A stretch of DNA of 10,242 nt, taken from NCBI GenBank assembly GCA_958415245.1, contig CATYYP010000042.1, positions 1-10,242 on the forward strand, given 5' to 3'. The DNA comes from Schaalia odontolytica (GTDB taxonomy: Bacteria > Actinomycetota > Actinomycetes > Actinomycetales > Actinomycetaceae). The notes under the pieces are model-generated. The model searched no databases and was not told where the DNA came from. It saw only the letters and a program-made list of their open reading frames with translations. Shown piece after piece: positions 1 to 10,242 of this stretch (positions within the stretch are counted from its first letter, which is position 1; each line of letters begins with the position of its first letter). The translations under genes and the position numbers were made by a program.

Positions 1-22
1 CGCCCTCCCAGCCGGGAGGGCG
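1..22. terminator. Strong GC hairpin at window edge
   Basis: Bases 1-9 are perfectly complementary to 14-22 (CGCCCTCCC / GGGAGGGCG), leaving a 4-nt loop AGCC. There is no T tract after it. It lies upstream of gyrB, so it most likely ends a transcription unit that lies outside the window. Because it sits exactly on the edge, the stem could be longer than seen. Confidence 0.55.
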
Positions 23-58
23 GCCCCGTTCGTCCCAGTCGCAACCACAATCGGCATG

Positions 59-80
59 TGACTGATCACAGTCGACTTTT
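59..80 (+). terminator. Weak hairpin plus T tract upstream of gyrB
   Basis: GACTG (60-64) and CAGTC (69-73) pair across loop ATCA, and TTTT follows at 77-80. The stem is only 5-6 bp, so this is a weak candidate that may back up the hairpin at the window edge and insulate gyrB from upstream transcription. Confidence 0.25.
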
Positions 81-150
81 CGTTGGAATCACGCAGTTTG
101 TAAAGTAACCCTCCGAGCCTGTCAATCCCGGGAACAAGCGCCACTTTTGG

Positions 151-156
151 TAGAAT
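151..156 (+). promoter_or_regulatory. Candidate -10 box of the gyrase promoter
   Basis: TAGAAT lies 45 bp upstream of the gyrB GTG and is a good sigma-70-type -10 element. I cannot find a convincing -35 at 16-18 bp (the bases there are CCGGGA-like). Transcription would start near 162, giving a ~40-nt leader with AGGGGAG (191-197) as ribosome binding site. Many gyrase promoters are supercoiling-sensitive, but nothing in the sequence proves that here. Confidence 0.45.
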
Positions 157-201
157 CTACAAGGTTAAACATCTATTTTCGCGCAATGCGAGGGGAGCCA
201 C

Positions 202-2226
202 GTGGCTGACAACGAGAAGACCGCCGAAGGCGAGCAGTCCTACGGCGCATCGGACATCACCGTCCTCGAGGGCCTGGAAGCCGTCCGCAAGCGCCCGGGC
301 ATGTACATCGGATCCACCGGCGAACGCGGCCTGCACCACCTGGTGTACGAGGTCGTCGACAACTCCGTGGACGAGGCCCTGGCCGGCTACGCCGACCACA
401 TCGAGGTCACGATCCAGGAAGACGGCGGCATCAAGGTCGTCGACAACGGTCGAGGCATCCCGGTCGACGAGCACCCCACCGAGCACAAGCCCACCGTCGA
501 GGTCGTCATGACGATCCTCCACGCCGGTGGTAAGTTCGGCGGCGGCGGCTACGCCGTCTCGGGCGGCCTGCACGGCGTCGGCATCTCCGTCGTTAACGCC
601 CTGTCCACCCGCGTGAACACCGAGATTCGCCGCCAGGGCTACGTGTGGCGCATGTCGTTCGCAAACGGCGGCACCCCCATCACGCCCCTCGAGCGCGGCG
701 AAGAAACCGACGAAACCGGCACCACCCAGGTCTTCTACCCGGACCCCGAGATCTTCGAAACCGTCGAATTCGACTTCGAGACCCTGCGCCAGCGCTTCCA
801 GCAGATGGCCTTCCTCAACAAGGGCCTGCGCATCACCCTGACCGACGAGCGCGAGTTCGCCACCGACGAAGGCGACGAGATCGCCGGCGGCGAGGAGACC
901 TCGGACAAGAAGACCAAGGGCCACCGCACCGTCTCCTACTGCTACGAGCACGGCCTGCGCGACTACGTCGAATACCTCGACTCCGCCAAGAAGTCCGAGA
1001 CGATCAACAACGAGATCATCGACTTCGAAGCCGAAAACGACGAAGGCACCATGAGCGTGGAAATCGCCATGCAGTGGACCACCGCCTATTCCTCGTCCGT
1101 CCACACCTTCGCCAACACCATCAACACGACCGAAGGCGGCATGCACGAGGAGGGCTTCCGCACCGCGCTGACCTCCCTCGTCAACCGCTACGGCCGCGAA
1201 AAGGGCATCATCCGCGACAAGGACGACAACCTCACCGGTGACGACGTCCGCGAAGGCCTGACCGCCGTCATCTCGATCAAGCTCACCGAACCCCAGTTCG
1301 AGGGCCAGACCAAGACCAAGCTCGGCAACACCGAGGCCCGCACCTTCGTCGCCCAGCAGGTCTACTCCAAGCTCACCGACTGGTTCGACGCCCACCCCGC
1401 CGACGCCAAGGCCATCATCAACAAGGGCCAGGCCGCCCAGGCTGCCCGCGTCGCCGCCCGCAAGGCCCGCGAGGCCACCCGCCGCAAGGGCGTCCTCGAA
1501 TCCGCCTCCATGCCCGGCAAGCTGCGCGACTGCTCCTCGCGCACGCCCTCCGAGTGCGAAATCTTCATCGTCGAGGGCGACTCCGCAGGCGGCTCCGCCG
1601 TCGGCGGCCGCGACCCCGAGCGTCAGGCCATCCTGCCGATCCGCGGCAAGATCCTCAACGTCGAAAAGGCGCGCCTGGACCGAGCCCTGTCCTCGGACAC
1701 CATCCGCTCCCTCATCACCGCCTTCGGCACCGGCATCGGCGAAGACTTCGACATCTCGAAGCTGCGCTACGGAAAGATCGTCATCATGGCGGACGCCGAC
1801 GTCGACGGCCAGCACATCGCCACGCTGCTGCTGACCCTCCTCTTCCGCTACATGCGACCCCTCATCGAGGGCGGCCACACCTTCATCGCCATGCCCCCGC
1901 TGTACCGCATCAAGTGGACCAACGCCGAGCACGAATTCGCCTATTCCGACAAGGAACGCGACGAACTGCTCGCCGCCGGCGCCGCCGCGAACCGCCGCCT
2001 GCCCAAGGAAGGTGGCATCCAGCGCTACAAGGGTCTCGGCGAAATGAACGACCACGAACTGTGGGAGACCACCATGGATCCGGCCAGCCGAATCCTCAAG
2101 CAGGTCACCCTCGACGAGGCCGCAGACGCCGACGAGACCTTCACGATCCTCATGGGCGACGACGTCGACCGACGCCGCACGTTCATCCAGCGCAACGCCA
2201 CCGACGTGCGCTTCCTCGACATCTGA
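202..2226 (+). CDS. gyrB: DNA gyrase subunit B (ATPase subunit)
   Basis: GyrB is the ATPase half of the A2B2 type IIA topoisomerase that introduces negative supercoils in the cytoplasm. At 674 aa it has normal actinobacterial length and lacks the insertion found in Gram-negative GyrB. The N-terminal GHKL ATPase is clear: the catalytic Glu is about residue 50 and the Mg-binding Asn residue 54 ([14 protein letters not shown]), with DNGRGIPV at 81-88 and GGLHGVG at 121-127. The TOPRIM metal site has EGDSAGGSA from residue 458 and DADVDGQH at 531-538. [10 protein letters not shown] lies at 607-616, near the C-terminus that contacts GyrA. The GTG start is favoured by AGGGGAG just upstream and by the usual N-terminal length. 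Third codon positions are almost all C or G, with C preferred, as expected of a highly expressed gene. gyrA follows after 75 bp and is probably co-transcribed. Confidence 0.98.
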
Positions 2227-2248
2227 CATCACCCACGACCAGCCCAGC

Positions 2249-2265
2249 CCCGGCCTCGTACCGGG
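2249..2265 (+). other. Short hairpin in the gyrB-gyrA gap
   Basis: CCCGG (2249-2253) pairs with CCGGG (2261-2265) over a 7-nt loop. There is no T tract. It is too weak to be called a terminator and could at most be a processing or attenuation structure between the two gyrase genes. The rest of the 75-bp gap holds only the gyrA ribosome binding site TAAGGA (2291-2296), five bases from the GTG. Confidence 0.25.
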
Positions 2266-2301
2266 CGGGCCTGATCGAGCAGAAACAACGTAAGGAAAAA
2301 C

Positions 2302-4923
<2,622 letters not shown>

Positions 4924-4927
4924 CGCG

Positions 4928-4965
4928 TGATCACGGGACGAGGCCCCGGCCTCGTCCCGTGATCA
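4928..4965 (+). terminator. gyrBA terminator hairpin
   Basis: Bases 4928-4945 are perfectly complementary to 4948-4965, an 18-bp stem with only CC between the arms; in RNA the innermost pairs must open to make a loop. It starts 4 bp after the gyrA stop. No T tract follows, so it is an I-shaped terminator or a 3'-end stabiliser, both common in high-GC Gram-positives. Its symmetry lets it act on either strand. Confidence 0.8.
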
Positions 4966-5050
4966 ATCTGCCAAAGCGGCGCGGAACCAGCGCCGGTGCC
5001 AGGCGATGCGGTAGCCTGGCAGGTAGGAAGTGCGACCTGGAAGGAAACCC

Positions 5051-5443
5051 ATGAGCGACCACGTCTCGAGCACCCGCAGCGACGCTCCCCGCCGAGTTGA
5101 CCTGGCCATCGCGCGCATCGACGCGTGGACCGTCATGAAGGTGGCGTTCCTGCTGTCCGTCGCCCTGGGTATCGCAATGGTTGTCGCCACGATCGTCCTG
5201 TGGCTCATGGTCGACGCCATGCACGTCTTCAGCCAGCTTGAGGAATTCCTCAAGACCATGGGCGCCGGCCGCTACGCGGACCTCCTGGACTACGCTCGCC
5301 TGCCGCGCGTCATCTCCTACGCGACCATCGTCGCGGTCATCAACGTCGTACTGCTCACCGCCCTGTCGACGCTGGGCGCCATGCTCTACAACGTCGTCGC
5401 CTCGCTGGTGGGTGGCGTCAAGGTGTCCCTCATGGATGAGTGA
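5051..5443 (+). CDS. DUF3566 two-helix membrane protein
   Basis: A 130-aa small membrane protein of the DUF3566 type, which in Actinobacteria usually sits right after gyrA; its function is not established. The first ~28 residues are polar and basic (RRVDLAIARIDAWTV), then a hydrophobic helix at about 30-53, a charged loop (SQLEEFLKTMGAGRYADLLDYARLPR) and a second hydrophobic stretch at about 88-120. Family members typically have the conserved start R-V-x-L-x-I-x-x-I-x-x-W-S/T-V-x-K, visible here at 15-30. I chose ATG 5051 over the in-frame GTG at 5030 because GGAAGG (5039-5044) is spaced six bases from the ATG. It has its own terminator, and the gyrA hairpin separates it from gyrase, so it may be independently transcribed; I see no clear promoter in the gap. 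Confidence 0.88.
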   Translation: MSDHVSSTRSDAPRRVDLAIARIDAWTVMKVAFLLSVALGIAMVVATIVLWLMVDAMHVFSQLEEFLKTMGAGRYADLLDYARLPRVISYATIVAVINVVLLTALSTLGAMLYNVVASLVGGVKVSLMDE

Positions 5444-5455
5444 GGGCACTCGCGC

Positions 5456-5483
5456 AAGGGGTCGGCTGATGCCGGCCCCTTTT
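5456..5483 (+). terminator. Intrinsic terminator of the DUF3566 gene
   Basis: AAGGGGTCGGC (5456-5466) pairs with GCCGGCCCCTT (5471-5481), 11 bp with one G-T pair, loop TGAT, ending in a TTTT run at 5480-5483. It starts 13 bp after the stop codon and is a textbook rho-independent terminator. Confidence 0.85.
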
Positions 5484-5496
5484 GCTATGCATTGCG

Positions 5497-5526
5497 ACGG
5501 GGGTTCGATTCCCCCCCATCTCCACA
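5497..5526 (+). pseudogene. ssrA: 3'-end fragment of a tmRNA gene (possible att scar)
   Basis: GGGGG (5499-5503), TTCGATT (5504-5510) and CCCCC form a perfect T arm, followed by CATCTCCACA, which is the typical end of bacterial tmRNA (acceptor strand CATCTCC, discriminator A). There are seven C residues where six would fit a 5-bp T stem plus 7-nt acceptor, so one base is extra. Nothing of the tmRNA 5' end, tag reading frame or pseudoknots exists upstream, where the DUF3566 gene and its terminator lie. The fragment is therefore not a working tmRNA. Integrases of islands and phages commonly use the ssrA 3' end and leave such copies, so this is probably an attachment-site remnant. No integrase is present in the window. 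Confidence 0.6.
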
Positions 5527-5743
5527 ACGTGGTGCTGCTGGTGTTCCGGGCGCCGGAGGCCCCGGCCGCTGTGTGTGCCGGTGGGCGGCGGCCCGCCCGC
5601 GAGCCGTCCGCGCCGCGAGCTTCGCTCGGCGCGTCGGTTCAAAGCCCGTCCTGGTGTTGCCATCGTTCACTGTCGCACGCTGTCGGTACTGCTGGGCCTC
5701 ACCTGACTGCGTGTGCGGTGCCTCCCTCCATGCCAGGCCATTA
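5527..5743. other. GC-rich stretch without recognised gene
   Basis: About 220 bp with no gene I can support. Reading frames cross it but have no ribosome binding site or family resemblance. It contains a very GC-rich block (about 5540-5640) with a short local palindrome GAGC-TTC-GCTC near 5615. It could be leftover DNA of the element that created the tmRNA 3' copy next to it. Confidence 0.4.
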
Positions 5744-5746
5744 ATG

Positions 5747-5852
5747 TCGCACGTAATTCCCCTGCGACTGTTTCAGGATTTGAATTCTGATCATTGGTAT
5801 TTCAACGTTTATCGGTGCTGTTGTGGGGTTGGTCTGATCGAATTACGTGCGA
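5747..5852. repeat. Inverted repeat element 1 (13-bp perfect arms)
   Basis: TCGCACGTAATTC (5747-5759) is perfectly inverted at 5840-5852, and the right arm is followed by TTTTT (5853-5857). The 80 bp between the arms holds a second, smaller hairpin (TCAGGATT / AATTCTGA near 5772-5789, one G-T pair). No ORF lies inside. The size and perfect termini fit a MITE-like or REP-like intergenic element. I see no target-site duplication immediately outside the arms, so mobility is not shown. Confidence 0.65.
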
Positions 5853-5905
5853 TTTTTCTGGGGAGTGGGCTTGTAGCTACGTGCGGGTGTCGCAGATCCT
5901 TCGCG

Positions 5906-6110
5906 TGAAACCGCCATCGCCTTTGCTCGCTTGTGCCCGTGTGGGGTTGAAACCGTCATCGCCTTTGCGGTGATGAAACGAGCGTTTTTGGTGCATTTTT
6001 TGGTTGCAGTGGTGTTGTTGGTTTCAACGATTGCTGTTTAGGGGCGCGCAGTGGTGACGGTGGTTTCATGTTGGCCCGTATCAGTGATTGCAGTGGTGTC
6101 GTCGGTTTCA
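5906..6110. repeat. Inverted 42-bp-period repeat array A (2+3 units)
   Basis: Five copies of a 21-nt unit ending in GGYGNYGNYGGTTTCA are present. Two are on the minus strand (5906-5926, 5948-5968) and three on the plus strand (6006-6026, 6048-6068, 6090-6110). The start-to-start distance is exactly 42 bp on both sides, while the ~21-nt stretches between units differ. The 37-bp centre (5969-6005) contains two T runs. The 42-bp period equals 14 codons, and on the minus strand one open frame reads LKPTTPLQ twice and MKPPSPLR between them, but there is no plausible start or ribosome binding site and the inversion argues against a protein. The two sides would pair to a long imperfect hairpin. I do not recognise a named family. 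Confidence 0.75.
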
Positions 6111-6134
6111 ACGTCGCACGTCGCCGCGTCCGGT

Positions 6135-6338
6135 GCGTGAAAAAGTTCGCCCGGCACGGCCTGATCGTGGGTGTGAGCGTGAAAAAGTTCGCCCTGCGCG
6201 CTCGAAACACCCCAAATTTGACGTTTTTGAGGTTGCTGGGCGAACTTTGTCACGGGTTGAGTGGGGGAGGGGCCGTGCTGGGCGAACTTTGTCACGCGTT
6301 GAGTGGGGGAGAGGGCGTACCGGGCGAATTTTGTCGCG
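6135..6338. repeat. Inverted 42-bp-period repeat array B (2+3 units)
   Basis: A different motif with the same plan as array A. GCGTGAAAAAGTTCGCCC occurs at 6135-6152 and 6177-6194; the inverted form GGGCGAACTTTGTCACG follows at 6238-6254 and 6280-6296, with a decayed copy at 6322-6338. Every step within a side is exactly 42 bp. Part of the inter-unit DNA is also inverted (GGCACGGCC near 6153 versus GGCCGTGCT at 6271-6279), so the left side can pair with the first two right units along most of ~60 bp. The 43-bp centre (6195-6237) has GAAAC, then CGTTTTTG, then GGTTGC, in the same order as in the centre of array A. Frames in several registers stay open because of the period of 14 codons; none looks like a gene. 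Confidence 0.8.
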
Positions 6339-6462
6339 CCTGCCGGCCCGCCACCGTCCCCGGAACAGTCCATGGCCCGACGCTACAGCGGCCCCGACAC
6401 CGCCTGCTGGCCCCGTCACCATACTTTGTGGTGCCTCCGGCCCCCTCCACATCGGCGTCGGT
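6339..6462. other. Spacer without recognised feature
   Basis: About 120 bp between two repeat elements. It is C-rich on the plus strand. I find no unit of the neighbouring arrays, no ribosome binding site with a credible frame and no clear hairpin. Confidence 0.4.
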
Positions 6463-6538
6463 GGGGGTTTTGCACTACATGAAGCCCTCTGGCTGCGTGT
6501 CGCCAGCGTGTCGGAGCCTCATGTAGTGCAATTCCCCC
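6463..6538. repeat. Inverted repeat element 2 (20-bp arms)
   Basis: Arms 6463-6482 and 6519-6538 match over 18 of 20 positions: GGGGG, two mismatches, then TTGCACTACATGA against its exact inverse. A small hairpin CTGGC / GCCAG (6489-6493, 6502-6506) lies in the loop. The right arm runs ATGT...AATTCCCC, resembling the left arm of inverted repeat element 1 (ATGT...AATTCCCC from 5744), so the two may be diverged relatives. The element is 76 bp and non-coding. Confidence 0.75.
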
Positions 6539-6567
6539 GATTGGTGTCTGAGTGTGAGGGGTGTGGT

Positions 6568-6638
6568 GCCCAAAGTGCAGACCGCCTCGGCGAAAAACGC
6601 TGACAATGGGCTTTTGTGAGCGAGGTGGTCTGCGTTTA
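6568..6638. repeat. Inverted repeat element 3 (13-bp arms)
   Basis: GCAGACCGCCTCG (6577-6589) pairs with CGAGGTGGTCTGC (6621-6633) with a single G-T pair. Just outside, AAA (6572-6574) and TTT (6635-6637) continue the symmetry. A second possible pairing, GCCCA (6568-6572) with TGGGC (6607-6611), competes with the first. The loop contains GCG-AAAAA-CGC. It is non-coding and similar in size to the palindrome ending at 6538. Confidence 0.65.
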
Positions 6639-6707
6639 GCACAGCGGTGGCGCGGGTGGTGTGCGTGCTCGCCGAGGTCCTGGCGGCTGGACCTATCGAC
6701 TGTCAGT

Positions 6708-6842
6708 GTTAACCCTTCAATGCGCAGCTAAACCCCATTGGTGGCATGGTGGGCAGCCCGCCCAGGCCACCACCTGTCGGGTTAACGTGCGCGGCGGCGG
6801 GTTTAGATGGCAACCAGGTGGGTTAACGTGCGCATCAAAGGG
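6708..6842. repeat. Inverted ~21-bp-period repeat array C (2+3 units)
   Basis: The minus strand carries GGGTTTAG (ending 6728) and GGGTTAAC (6715-6708), 20 bp apart. The plus strand carries GGGTTAAC (6779), GGGTTTAG (6799) and GGGTTAAC (6820), 20 and 21 bp apart. The two words alternate, so the full period is about 41 bp. 6713-6735 and the inverse of 6820-6842 agree at 18 of 23 positions, so DNA between the words is also shared (TGCGCA core). The centre has its own hairpin, GGTGG...TGGGC / GCCCA...CCACC (about 6741-6774). Architecture matches arrays A and B although the words are different. It ends 30 bp beyond the stop codon of the leftward hydrolase gene and might serve as its 3' structure. 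Confidence 0.7.
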
Positions 6843-6871
6843 TCCGGGTGTCCACCTGCGGGGCCGGTTCG

Positions 6872-7750
6872 CTAGGTGGTGCCAATCCGCGTCGGACGAG
6901 CCCGCAACAGCGCGCTGAGAACAGCACGCAGAAACCGGCCCGACTGCGACGGCAGACGGTGATCGGGAGCAAGCGAAGACCTCTGACACCGCCACGCATA
7001 CGGGTTGTGGCTAAGTGGCCCCGGCCATGACGACGCGACGATGGTGGCCGGCGCGGGCAGGGGGAGCAGCGGGCTCACCCAGGAACCCGCCGTCACGTAG
7101 ATGCGCATCAGTCCGTCGATGCTCGCGAAAAATCCACCGTCAACAACCGGCGCTGGAAAACCCACGGGATCAAACGCATAGACGCGCTCGAGCGCCGGGG
7201 GAGTGGCCGCCGCAGCAGCGTACAGCGCGAAATTCGCACCCTTCGAATGACCGACCACGGTGAGTGGCCCATCGGCCCGCGCCGCCGCATACGCCAGGTA
7301 GTTGGCGGCCCACCGCTGTGAATCAGTCGGAAAATCAAGGCCAAAGCGGGCATCCTCCGCCCACCCGACCGCGCTTGCATCCGTCCCGCGGAAGACCACG
7401 TAGGTCGCCCCGGCCTCGTCGATGAAGGTGACGGCGCCGAACTGAGCGAGCGGCCGCGACGTCAGCCGAGTGACCGCATCGCGCACGCGCAGGCCCCCGA
7501 AGCGCGCGCTTGCGCCGGCGGCCTCGAGGAGGGGACGATCGGCGTGGGACGCCAACGAATAGCGATACAGAGATGGGATCGACGAGGCCTGGGCTACTTC
7601 TCGGAGCAGGCATCCGTGCGGGGAACGAGGCCCGGGCAGCGCGTGAAAATCCACGTAGACCAGGCACGAGAGAGCGAGGGCGTCGGCGGGGGAGAGGTCC
7701 GCTCGTAGCGGTGTACGCGAGTCTCGAACGTACTCGATGACGGCGGTCAC
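6872..7750 (-). CDS. Mbeg1/DUF2974-like alpha/beta hydrolase
   Basis: This 292-aa protein looks like the Mbeg1-like (DUF2974) branch of the lipase-type alpha/beta hydrolases; substrate unknown. The N-terminus fits the family pattern (IEYVRD...ADALALSCLVYVDF at 5-35). VVFRGTD (118-124) is the oxyanion-hole region, W130-AED follows, and the nucleophile elbow GHSKG is at 167-171 with Ser169. FDPVG at 193-197 offers Asp194 and HNPYAW at 248-253 offers His248 for a Ser-Asp-His triad. No signal peptide is visible, so it is probably cytoplasmic. The tail after His248 is short compared with some relatives. The GTG start has a very strong GAGGAGGAGG (7764-7755) four bases upstream. It is transcribed away from the tRNA-Ile promoter. 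Family assignment is good; activity is inference. Confidence 0.8.
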   Translation of the reverse strand: MTAVIEYVRDSRTPLRADLSPADALALSCLVYVDFHALPGPRSPHGCLLREVAQASSIPSLYRYSLASHADRPLLEAAGASARFGGLRVRDAVTRLTSRPLAQFGAVTFIDEAGATYVVFRGTDASAVGWAEDARFGLDFPTDSQRWAANYLAYAAARADGPLTVVGHSKGANFALYAAAAATPPALERVYAFDPVGFPAPVVDGGFFASIDGLMRIYVTAGSWVSPLLPLPAPATIVASSWPGPLSHNPYAWRCQRSSLAPDHRLPSQSGRFLRAVLSALLRARPTRIGTT

Positions 7751-7817
7751 GAGGCCTCCTCCTCACCATCGAGGGCCGGACGATCACGGTCGTGTTGGAC
7801 GTCACCAACGCTCGATT

Positions 7818-7846
7818 TTGCCGGATGGCCCTGTGCTGTGTACTAT
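7818..7846 (+). promoter_or_regulatory. Promoter of the tRNA-Ile / DLW-39 / tRNA-Ala unit
   Basis: TTGCCG (7818-7823) and TACTAT (7841-7846) are separated by 17 bp, a good vegetative promoter placing the start near 7853, about 20 bases before the tRNA. The same bases read TATAGT on the minus strand, but I find no matching -35 there for the divergent hydrolase gene. Confidence 0.7.
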
Positions 7847-7873
7847 ATCCGAGTGCCCGCAAGGGTGCCGGTT

Positions 7874-7950
7874 GGGCCTATAGCTCAGTAGGTTAGAGCG
7901 CAGTCCTGATAAGACTGAGGTCGGTGGTTCGAGCCCACCTAGGCCCACCA
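7874..7950 (+). tRNA. tRNA-Ile (anticodon GAT)
   Basis: The cloverleaf is complete: acceptor GGGCCTA / TAGGCCC, D arm GCTC / GAGC, anticodon stem CAGTC / GACTG with loop CTGATAA (GAT at 7908-7910), T arm GGTGG-TTCGAGC-CCACC, discriminator A7947 and an encoded CCA at 7948-7950. It reads ATC and ATT codons; ATC is by far the commonest Ile codon in the gyrase genes of this window. Confidence 0.97.
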
Positions 7951-7980
7951 TCCGCAGGCGAGCGAAAGCGGAGGATCATC

Positions 7981-8115
7981 ATGAAGAAATGGGTCACCTG
8001 TTGCGTGGCTGTCGGATCCGTCGTGGCCGTCGGCATCGCCGTCCGACAAATTCTCGTTGATCTTTCCGATAATGCTGACCTGTGGACGTCCGTCACGGAC
8101 GCCGTGGAGGACTGA
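7981..8115 (+). CDS. DLW-39 family small protein
   Basis: A 44-aa protein, MKKWVTCCVAVGSVVAVGIA at its N-terminus, then RQILVDLSDNADLWTSVTDAVED. It matches the DLW-39 family of actinobacterial microproteins: a positive start, one hydrophobic helix (about 4-20), an R-Q turn and a C-terminal DLW...TD motif (DLW at 33-35). Function is not known; it is probably a membrane-anchored peptide with the acidic end in the cytoplasm or outside. The start is clear: GGAGG (7970-7974) lies six bases before the ATG. It sits 30 bp after tRNA-Ile and ends 11 bp before tRNA-Ala, so it must be cut out of the same primary transcript. Confidence 0.87.
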   Translation: MKKWVTCCVAVGSVVAVGIAVRQILVDLSDNADLWTSVTDAVED

Positions 8116-8126
8116 GTTCCTCCAAC

Positions 8127-8199
8127 GGGGCTATGGCGCAATTGGTAGCGCACCTGCTTTGCAAGCAGGGGGTTACGGGTTCGAGTCCCGTTAGCTCCA
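8127..8199 (+). tRNA. tRNA-Ala (anticodon TGC)
   Basis: The cloverleaf is complete: acceptor GGGGCTA / TAGCTCC, D arm GCGC / GCGC, anticodon stem CCTGC / GCAGG with loop TTTGCAA (TGC at 8160-8162), T arm ACGGG-TTCGAGT-CCCGT and discriminator A8199. CCA is not encoded (the next bases are CTC), unlike the tRNA-Ile just before, so it must be added by nucleotidyltransferase. Confidence 0.97.
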
Positions 8200-8209
8200 C
8201 TCTACGTAC

Positions 8210-8257
8210 AAGGCTCGAATCCTTGCCATCTTGGATGGTTTCGGTTCGGGCCTTTTT
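8210..8257 (+). terminator. Terminator of the tRNA unit
   Basis: AAGGCTCGAA (8210-8219) pairs with TTCGGGCCTT (8245-8254), 10 bp with one G-T pair, and the T run 8253-8257 closes it. The loop holds a second small hairpin CCATC / GATGG (8226-8238). It lies 10 bp after tRNA-Ala. Confidence 0.75.
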
Positions 8258-8331
8258 GCTGTCTGAGGCCCGGCCCGGGCAAGGGCGTTGGTGAGGTGGC
8301 TCTGGCGTCGGCGTCATCCCATGGACACTCA

Positions 8332-8348
8332 CCTCAACCACGTTGAGG
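8332..8348 (-). terminator. Hairpin over the phrB stop codon
   Basis: CCTCAAC and GTTGAGG (8332-8338, 8342-8348) form a 7-bp stem with a 3-nt loop that includes the photolyase stop codon. There is no T tract on the minus strand, so it may be a weak terminator or only a 3'-end structure. Confidence 0.35.
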
Positions 8349-9761
8349 CCTGGCATGGGCTGCGGATGCCCCGCGTACTTGCTCGTAAGCGGCGAGCGCC
8401 TCGCGTCGTGACTCGGCCAGGTCGACGACAGGCACGACAGGCCGATTGGCTCCCTCTGGGATCCAGCGCTTGACATAGCGGCTGCGCGGGTCGAAGCGGG
8501 TGCGCTGGAGGTCAGGGTTGAAGATGCGGAAGTAGGGTGCAGCGTCTGCGCCGCAGCCGGCCACCCACTGCCAGGAGACAGGATTGTTGGCCTCGTCTGC
8601 GTCTACGAGAGTCTCCCAGAACCACTGCTCGCCGTCTTGCCATGGCTGGAGCATGTTCTTGGTGAACAGTGATGCCGCGACCATGCGCACCCGGTTGTGC
8701 ATCCAGCCTGTCTGCCATAGCTGCCGCATTCCAGCGTCGACGAGGTCGATGCCGGTGCGACCCTGTCGCCAGGCCAGCGCCAGGTGGTCGTCGGGATAGT
8801 AGGGGAATTCCGCGAAAGCTGGACGCATGGGGGTGTCCTCGAGATATTCCCGGTGGTGGAGCAGGTGCCAGCTGAACTCACGCCAGTAGAGTTGCCTGAT
8901 CCAAGCGGCGATATCCTCGCCCGAGGCCGTGCTGCTGCGGGCTGCGGCCACGGCTTGGCGCGGTGATAGTTCCCCGCACCGCAACCTCGGCGAGATTCTA
9001 CTGGTGGATGTTTCCTCCCCGGGCAGGTCACGGCGCGTGGCATAGCCGGGCAACCAGCTGTCGATGGCGTCCAGTTGCTGGTGGGCTGCCAATTCACCGG
9101 GCTCCCAGTGCTGTGCGAGGGTCTCTTCCCACCAGGCGGGGCCCTCGTCGAGCAAGCCAATGTCCTCTAAGTTCTGCAGGATACCGTCCTCCCGCAACGA
9201 GGCGAGGGCTGTGGCCGCACTGTCTGGCTCGTCGACCGGTGAGGGCTCGGGCAGCAGGGGACCGAGGGGCAGGTCGGCGACGGCGTGGCTGAACGGTGTG
9301 AAAACTTGGTAGTGGGAGCCATTGGTCGTCTGCATGAGCCAGGGCTCGGCGAGCAGGCTGCCGGGGTGGCTGTGCACCTCGGTGCGGGATTTCAACTCCT
9401 GCTTGATGGCGGCGTCCAATCGGCAGGCTGCCGGGGCGTAGCGTCGTGTCCAATGCACGACGGTAGGTTGCAAGGCGTCCACGACTCGGCGCATGACGTT
9501 CGCGGCATCACCCCGGGCGAAGACGAGTGGAATGCCAATGTCAGCAAGCCGCGGTGCCAGCTGTTGAAGGCTGCGGTAGTACCACCACCGGGTGGCCGCA
9601 CCGAGCGGGCGTGGGCCGTACCGATTGTCGTCGTCATCGGTCCTGCGGGTTTCGTGGATCCACAGTGCAACCACGGGCCCATGTGCTGCCGAGCAGGCGG
9701 CCGTCAGGGCCGGGTGGTCAGCCAGACGGAGGTCGTCGCGAAGCCAGATCAGTGTGGTCAT
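8334..9761 (-). CDS. phrB: Deoxyribodipyrimidine photo-lyase (class I CPD photolyase)
   Basis: Repairs UV-induced cyclobutane pyrimidine dimers using blue light and reduced FAD. At 475 aa it has almost the length of E. coli PhrB. The N-terminal antenna domain starts with LIWLRDDLRLADHPAL; the FAD domain has TSRISPRLRCGELSPRQ (251-269), WREFSWHLL (293-301), GRTGIDLVDAGMRQLWQTGW (334-353), MHNRVRM (354-360) and DAAPYFRIFNP (406-416). Asn393 matches E. coli Asn378 beside FAD N5. Of the electron-transfer tryptophan triad, Trp397 and Trp374 are kept, but the surface-end position (E. coli Trp306) is Tyr321. The nature of the antenna cofactor (8-HDF or MTHF) cannot be told. ATG 9761 is preceded by AAGGA with six bases spacing. 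It converges on the tRNA unit. Confidence 0.96.
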   Translation of the reverse strand: MTTLIWLRDDLRLADHPALTAACSAAHGPVVALWIHETRRTDDDDNRYGPRPLGAATRWWYYRSLQQLAPRLADIGIPLVFARGDAANVMRRVVDALQPTVVHWTRRYAPAACRLDAAIKQELKSRTEVHSHPGSLLAEPWLMQTTNGSHYQVFTPFSHAVADLPLGPLLPEPSPVDEPDSAATALASLREDGILQNLEDIGLLDEGPAWWEETLAQHWEPGELAAHQQLDAIDSWLPGYATRRDLPGEETSTSRISPRLRCGELSPRQAVAAARSSTASGEDIAAWIRQLYWREFSWHLLHHREYLEDTPMRPAFAEFPYYPDDHLALAWRQGRTGIDLVDAGMRQLWQTGWMHNRVRMVAASLFTKNMLQPWQDGEQWFWETLVDADEANNPVSWQWVAGCGADAAPYFRIFNPDLQRTRFDPRSRYVKRWIPEGANRPVVPVVDLAESRREALAAYEQVRGASAAHARPQRG

Positions 9762-9780
9762 GGATGGTCCTTGAGAGTGT

Positions 9781-9894
9781 TCAGCGCAGGAGTTGGCCGG
9801 TGATCGTGTTGGCGAAGGGTAGGAGGGTCATCGGCTGCTGCTCTCGGTCACGGAAGGTCTCCACCCAAACCCGGGAGCAGAGTGTTGTGTTCAT
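9781..9894 (-). CDS. Possible 37-aa ORF upstream of phrB (uncertain)
   Basis: An ATG-started frame of 37 codons (begins MNTTLCSRVWVETFRDREQQ, ends TGQLLR) stops 19 bp before phrB. Its residue composition is protein-like and it is on the same strand as phrB, but no ribosome binding site precedes the ATG and an in-frame stop lies six codons further upstream. I do not recognise it. A second frame (MTSDDNVHEHNTLLPGLGG, from 9918) overlaps it in another register, so a frameshifted fragment of a lost gene is as likely as a real microprotein or leader peptide. Confidence 0.25.
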   Translation of the reverse strand: MNTTLCSRVWVETFRDREQQPMTLLPFANTITGQLLR

Positions 9895-9921
9895 GCACGT
9901 TATCGTCGCTGGTCATCGTAC

Positions 9922-9950
9922 TTGACAGGCGAGCGGTGCCACCAGATACG
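9922..9950 (+). promoter_or_regulatory. Candidate promoter with perfect -35
   Basis: TTGACA (9922-9927) is followed after 17 bp by GATACG (9945-9950), a perfect -35 with a mediocre -10. No believable gene follows on the plus strand, but an intrinsic terminator does about 70 bp later. Confidence 0.4.
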
Positions 9951-9956
9951 TCGGAG

Positions 9957-10044
9957 GTCTGGGGATGGCGCGTGGCCGAGCCAAAGCTCTCAACCTGTTT
10001 GCGTAGGTCTACGTTTCACCCGCAACCTGATGGTTACGGGTTTT
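9957..10044 (+). ncRNA. Candidate ~90-nt small RNA
   Basis: The interval runs from the expected start of the TTGACA promoter to the T tract of an intrinsic terminator. It contains a perfect short palindrome CGTAG-GT-CTACG (10002-10013) and a possible TGGC / GCCA pairing near 9966-9982. No tRNA, SRP RNA or 6S RNA signature is visible. The frames through it lack a ribosome binding site. The whole call rests on signals at both ends. Confidence 0.3.
10018..10044 (+). terminator. Intrinsic terminator
   Basis: ACCCG-C-AACC (10018-10027) pairs with GGTT-A-CGGGT (10032-10041), nine pairs and one C-A mismatch, loop TGAT, followed by TTTT (10041-10044). The T tract is on the plus strand only. No annotated plus-strand gene precedes it, which makes it unusual. 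Confidence 0.6.
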
Positions 10045-10208
10045 CTGTATGTGAGCTTCGACAATTTGAGCAGGTCAGCGGCGCTGCTGAGGCCATATTG
10101 TGCGCTTGGATAAAACTTGTCCGACCGCCTGGTTATAGGTGGAGAATCAGGGTGCCACGTCACAAAAAATATGTAAAGTGGCCCATCAGCTGCACTGAAA
10201 GCCCGTAT

Positions 10209-10240
10209 TTATCCACAGTGCTATGCACAGTTGTGTATAA
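10209..10240. promoter_or_regulatory. Cluster of DnaA boxes (origin-like edge)
   Basis: TTATCCACA (10209-10217) and, inverted, TGTGTATAA (10232-10240, TTATACACA) both match the DnaA-box consensus TTATNCACA perfectly. CTATGCACA (10221-10229) has one mismatch. A weaker inverted box, TTATCCAAG, lies at 10105-10113, and an A/T-rich run (about 10163-10176) is in between. DnaA, the initiator ATPase, binds such boxes at oriC and upstream of dnaA. The window ends here, so whether this is oriC or another DnaA-binding region cannot be decided. Confidence 0.65.
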
Positions 10241-10242
10241 AC

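Follow-up and report, generated by a model that had tools for sequence, protein, structure and literature searches.

A row of six inverted-repeat elements, here termed E1 to E6, lies downstream of gyrB-gyrA in a Schaalia odontolytica-like stretch of 10,242 nucleotides (contig CATYYP010000042.1, positions 1 to 10,242, forward strand; hereafter the window). In the complete relative S. odontolytica FDAARGOS_732 (termed G002 and used for genome-wide counts) or in another relative, the E1 to E6 families and two further families, F19 and F52, all display a gene for a DUF559-domain protein beside or between their arrays (8/8 families), the linked genes being located outside the window. The best reading of this association is that the arrays are the predicted cognate sites in a mobile system that resembles REPIN/RAYT and is driven by a nuclease. 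Each array family would serve as the DNA element recognised by a DUF559 nuclease of its own, by which both gene-carrying and gene-less arrays would be mobilised, a reading to which we assign a probability of roughly 0.6. The elements of the window are as follows.

5738..5861, no strand assigned: E1, single inverted pair of the word TCGCACGTAATTC, at 5747-5759 (forward) and 5840-5852 (reverse), 93 bp start to start
5906..6110, plus strand: E2, array of units like TGAAACCGTCATCGCCTTTGC, forward at 5906 and 5948, reverse at 6006, 6048 and 6090
6135..6339, plus strand: E3, array of units like GCGTGAAAAAGTTCGCCCTGC, forward at 6135 and 6177, reverse at 6235, 6277 and 6319
6463..6538, no strand assigned: E4, inverted pair at 6468/6519 with centre GCGTGTCGCCAGCGTGTCG
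6577..6633, no strand assigned: E5, inverted pair of the word GCAGACCGCCTCG at 6577/6621
6708..6843, no strand assigned: E6, array of GTTAACCC-type units, forward at 6708 and 6728, reverse at 6779, 6799 and 6820

Four inverted-repeat pairs scoring at least 30 were found in positions 5700-6900, while 500 dinucleotide shuffles gave a mean of 0.004 (maximum 1), so the inverted-repeat content of this region is beyond chance and, together with the unit positions, confirms the six consecutive palindromes described in a first-pass annotation of the sequence. E1, E4 and E5 each comprise one inverted pair. The layout that the annotation had proposed is identical to the base between E2 and E3, with two units facing three, a step of 42 bp, a distance of 58 bp over the centre and two further steps of 42 bp. 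E6, which had been assigned to the same plan, indeed presents 2+3 units, at steps of 20 to 21 bp, its linked protein belonging to another clade. The words differ, as stated there, but are perhaps not wholly unrelated, since by eye GAAA and, further on, TCGCC occur in the units of both E2 and E3, which also share a final TGC.

DUF559 nuclease genes beside the arrays

For the first set of genes, every PF04480 match of seven genomes was taken (11 in all). Several of these sit between two copies of one element, the words differing from gene to gene, and at L187 no flanking element was seen. In G002, a profile built from the PF04480 proteins matches four places, which are flanked by E2, E4, E6 and F19 arrays, respectively; a 437-aa frame that ends in a C-terminal DUF559 domain stands between tandem E2 arrays. 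Linked genes and their flanks are listed below.

G002:C1:2293374-2294330: E2-linked gene, E2 arrays on both sides
G002, 46 kb: E4-linked gene, an E4 element on both sides
G002, 688 kb: E6-linked gene, E6 arrays on both sides
L182, L185, L201: flanks with the E1 word or a near word
L188, L190: E3 arrays adjoining DUF559 genes
L191, L193: E5-type word flanking DUF559 genes
L181: the GCACACAG word as flanking element
L183: the GCACACAA word as flanking element
L197, L200: F52 arrays on one side of the gene
L198, L199: on one side of the gene, a different word that shares the 52-bp step

The profile matches 34 of 35 genus genomes at up to 7 places each (149 matches, summed by hand). Of these, 24 were examined, namely the 11 PF04480 matches, three further ones that complete the set of G002, and 10 picked before their flanks were seen; ten loci of an order-wide sample, in which 28 of 59 genomes match at 1e-20 (G002 included), were picked mostly by E-value. 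Compared with 400 control genes, taken from G002 only, the two flanks share a repeat in 21/34 loci against 1/400 at a score of at least 50, 22/34 against 3/400 at 36 or more, and 23/34 against 17/400 at 32 or more. At two of the 21 loci, L198 and L199, it is not the array that the flanks have in common, and at L184 the shared letters were not read. For the ten loci outside the genus, a repeat scoring at least 32 is shared in six and not in four (control, 5/200). One mechanism seems to underlie the arrays, as suggested in the first-pass annotation. Neither the weakness of the AbiEi label nor the tie with 3hrl alters the probability given above, as it is the gene-array association that carries the central claim.

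DUF559 is listed in Pfam as of unknown function. The five linked proteins scanned display DUF559/REase_MTES_1575, and the modelled DUF559 domain matches the homing endonuclease I-Bth0305I, with a predicted Vsr/EDxHD-type catalytic fold that assigns the linked proteins to nucleases on structural models. Their N-terminal region weakly resembles AbiEi. As candidates for the EDxHD catalytic motif, 14 E1-type proteins keep E222, D224, H229 and D238, and 40 E3-type relatives keep E228, E232, D263, E274, D276 and K280. A PDB sequence search with A2 returned weak RAP-domain matches only. In a protein search with the E1-linked nuclease, the 120 clusters listed of 277 were all 90-96% identical to the query, a dense cloud of near variants.

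The row E1 to E6 is a mosaic of arrays from six DUF559-linked families; no nuclease gene was recognised adjoining it, the window's own frames not having been scanned for DUF559. The centre of E4 (6490-6515; GCGTGTC..C.GCGTGTCG) is found again at L207 735-799 between quite different arms, in an element adjoining a DUF559 gene that does not belong to the genus sample; judged from these letters, the E4 core may be kept while the arms change.

Array geometry, recurrence and presence at syntenic sites

All six elements recur in relatives, at 5, 17, 17, 19, 7 and 9 places in G002 for E1 to E6, respectively, and F19 and F52 were added by a genome-wide inverted-repeat scan of the same genome. E3 gives 22, 26, 37 and 2 match rows in genomes G001 to G004, counts that include reverse readings of one palindrome; no rows came from G005 to G007. 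E2 and E3 are adjacent, always in one order, at 15 G002 sites. Tallied over a wide range of distances, same-strand steps in G002 are exactly 42 bp in 50/51 cases for E2, 41 or 42 in 23/25 for E3, 52 in 10/10 for F52 and 19 or 38 in 25/28 for F19, with E6 looser (20, 40 or 60 in 23/31). A search for the E2 core pair, its gap free to vary over 13-33 bp, gave matches in 10 of the 35 genus genomes, and the reversed control pattern matched none of them; among the matches listed, the step was 42 in all except four, counted by eye. Step and centre of the shared plan are fixed, in line with the annotation, but the number of units is not, ranging from 1 to 4 per arm in other copies.

Mean pairwise identity between copies is 0.65, 0.61 and 0.90 for the units of E2, E3 and F52, compared with 0.29, 0.28 and 0.35 for their spacers. 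A spacer length conserved despite sequence drift is what an array for a helically phased DNA-binding protein, one of the annotation's suggestions, would predict.

In a tree of 34 proteins, the 42-bp families (E2, E3 and an E2-like word) constitute one supported clade with F52 as its sister; the other 52-bp word branches near this group, its placement not being firm, and the E6 (20 bp) and F19 (19 bp) proteins are sisters. With five geometry classes over 28 rows, the tree requires 5 changes, against a mean of 14.7 (minimum 11) for shuffled labels; when each word is reduced to a single row, 5 are required against 10.4 (minimum 7), the classes having been assigned by hand with coarse "short" and "long" single-pair bins. 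E2 and E3 share one plan because their nucleases are sisters, so an origin of the layout three times independently is not upheld. Their combination of one plan with different words is best described as a geometry that was inherited while the words diverged. This is directly visible at the E2/E3 gene locus, a syntenic position at which G002 and G011 have the E2 gene with its arrays, G001 the E3 gene with its arrays, and G003 the E3 gene with one flank mapped.

Array and gene modules are missing at matching sites of other species, the empty sites that the annotation had proposed seeking, and the dispersed families, present in some species and absent from others, are in line with its mobile-family idea. 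G011 and G020 have an F52 array and gene module that G002 lacks, about ten unaligned bases remaining at the matching place; at ~1.4 kb the module amounts to roughly the array plus one 355-aa frame, with little room for more. The E1-gene-E1 module of G001 is likewise missing from G002, with 73 bp in its stead. Five E1 elements were compared between G002 and G003; presence/absence is clean for two, and the remaining three fall in stretches that align poorly. An E1 insertion at G003 C1 ~726492 is flanked by a duplicated stretch of ~32 bp, single in G002 and unusually long for a target duplication. Two tracts longer than 300 bp link distant composites (627 bp at 97.6% and 332 bp at 95.8%), and the identity of the 627-bp tract falls off inside an E3 array. 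This pattern would be expected if copying runs from array to array, two cases proving little.

Among arrays listed, 0/19 E2 arrays overlap gene calls in G002, and 14 of 15 E2/E3 composites lie downstream of a co-directional gene; the gene calls came from a crude script (69% of bases), which makes the second count approximate. A further repeat of ~130 bp in G002 C1, more than 90% alike between copies (57049-57172, 192060-192191, 326047-326176 and 1360177-1360311, among others), lies in places directly upstream of E2 composites.

In the window, the repeat region follows frames that we take to be gyrB (202-2226), gyrA (2302-4923) and a DUF3566-type gene (5030-5443), and precedes a minus-strand hydrolase-like frame (6872-7750), tRNA-Ile and tRNA-Ala. 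The hydrolase-like frame contains a GHSKG lipase-type motif and probably encodes an alpha/beta hydrolase. Ten related loci were compared, mostly from Schaalia, Actinomyces and Pauljensenia records; two bear other genus names on record, yet their DUF3566 protein is 100% identical. Positions 5458-5527 resemble the 3' end of transfer-messenger RNA (Rfam, 24.9 bits, below the cut-off of 47), the rest of which is missing, and could possibly be an ancient attachment site, once used by an integrated element. Plasmid and phage records gave no match to positions 5700-6900 at E 0.01.

Alternative explanations

The arrays might be operators only, the protein repressing its own gene through an upstream array, with dispersed arrays as decoys or regulated sites and the nuclease domain serving otherwise, such as in defence, without moving them. 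Consistent with this, the distance from an upstream array to the gene is 66 to 87 bp in L181, L182 and L185 and 38 bp in L191 (assumed starts), and AbiEi and Rv2827c bind inverted repeats of ~23 bp in their own promoters, according to PMC7319586. In contrast with these two proteins, the AbiEi-like region here is joined to a nuclease domain, and the putative sites occupy many genome places (E2, 17 in G002). In addition, a second array copy often lies downstream of the gene, E2 and E3 each occupy 17 places in G002 where composites mostly follow rather than precede a co-directional gene, and syntenic sites differ in having or lacking gene modules, which makes a purely regulatory role unlikely.

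A still less probable explanation is that the arrays are miniature inverted-repeat transposable elements (MITEs) of DDE or Tn7/Mu-type transposons, with several transposase-binding sites at their ends and the DUF559 gene as cargo or accessory. The gene found with each of eight word families encodes a DUF559 nuclease, no transposase search having been run, and the compact F52 module is little more than its array and one frame. A classical MITE with short target duplications is not favoured either: of the five aligned E1 insertions two are clean, and neither has such a duplication, although old copies may have lost theirs.

Two further explanations appear very improbable. A role in chromosome organisation near the replication origin is suggested by the E2/E3 composites of G002, which cluster round the GC-skew minimum (~240 kb) at C1 57-675 kb and 2279-2427 kb, most pointing away from it. 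F19, F52 and E4 are more widely spread, however, and clustering is less clear for families other than E2 and E3; some arrays and modules of one species are lacking in another, and orientation to the origin as organising principle was set aside because the exception at 57 kb follows its upstream gene and not the fork. A long stepped RNA hairpin, the other idea of the first-pass annotation, or a 3'-end/terminator structure would fit the position of composites 3' of co-directional genes and the excess of G.T over A.C mismatches in paired units (129 to 28). The hairpin was set aside as well, since units pair but spacers do not: spacer complementarity is 0.32, 0.27 and 0.32 for E2, E3 and F52, against 0.37, 0.32 and 0.33 for random pairing. 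The G.T excess can be explained by strand composition, since it recurs in mirrored spacers that do not pair (159 to 49), and Rfam revealed only the two tRNAs above cut-off in positions 4900-8300.

Comparison with known systems and proposed mechanism

Mosaic rows of several short repeat families occupy intergenic regions in NIME, BOX and BIME elements, as they do here, but the present families differ in having a linked nuclease gene each and, in several, rigidly spaced multi-unit arms. REPIN/RAYT is the nearest parallel in logic. According to PMC3116915, three REPIN groups each lie beside their own RAYT, and REPIN clusters form by insertion into or beside existing elements. The arrays described here are likewise dispersed extragenic inverted repeats, with several word groups per genome, each with its own adjoining enzyme gene. 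Their enzyme, in contrast, is a DUF559 nuclease and not a Y1 (HUH) tyrosine transposase, a family not detected in the five linked proteins scanned, whose genes had been found with DUF559-based profiles; because the enzyme is of another kind, the system is not a member of the REPIN/RAYT family. The arrays also differ in comprising 1 to 4 units of ~20 bp per arm at steps of 42, 52, 20 or 19 bp, or single pairs. As with homing endonuclease genes, the gene is present in some genomes and absent from others at one site. In contrast with EDxHD homing endonucleases such as I-Bth0305I, the presumed sites, at which cleavage is predicted, form a dispersed multicopy repeat family, and DUF559 genes inside introns or inteins were neither sought nor seen.

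In the mechanism that we propose, a nuclease with a Vsr-like, homing-endonuclease-like catalytic domain behind a weakly AbiEi-like N-terminal region would bind, as protomers, the ~20-bp units of two arms facing a short centre, the fixed spacing holding bound protomers in register. In the autonomous form the gene would move together with its array, while the non-autonomous form would comprise gene-less arrays such as those of the window. Spread would probably proceed by cleavage at one array and repair from another copy, a homing-like conversion that would co-convert neighbours and so build mosaics such as E1 to E6. More tentatively, at somewhat less than even odds, these systems could represent a new mobile-element class in which DUF559 nucleases, found throughout the genus and in about half of the order-wide sample, each replicate a private, helically phased array family by targeted cleavage and array-templated repair. 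The geometry would be set by the protein clade and the ~20-bp word would change along with the protein, so that one genome would house several selfish systems orthogonal to one another.

Papers on DUF559, judged by titles and abstract openings, include none on such repeats, and no description of DUF559 genes associated with arrays was found in the literature, covered mostly at listing level and with parts of PMC7319586, PMC3116915 and PMC3943268. The palindrome arrays point to nuclease-driven selfish mobile DNA. The tie of DUF559 to private, rigidly spaced arrays offers a testable function for this family and suggests a nuclease-based counterpart of REPIN/RAYT, and the natural series of proteins whose words diverge at constant geometry is useful for reading a recognition code. 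Such a system would account for much of the repetitive intergenic DNA in these genomes.
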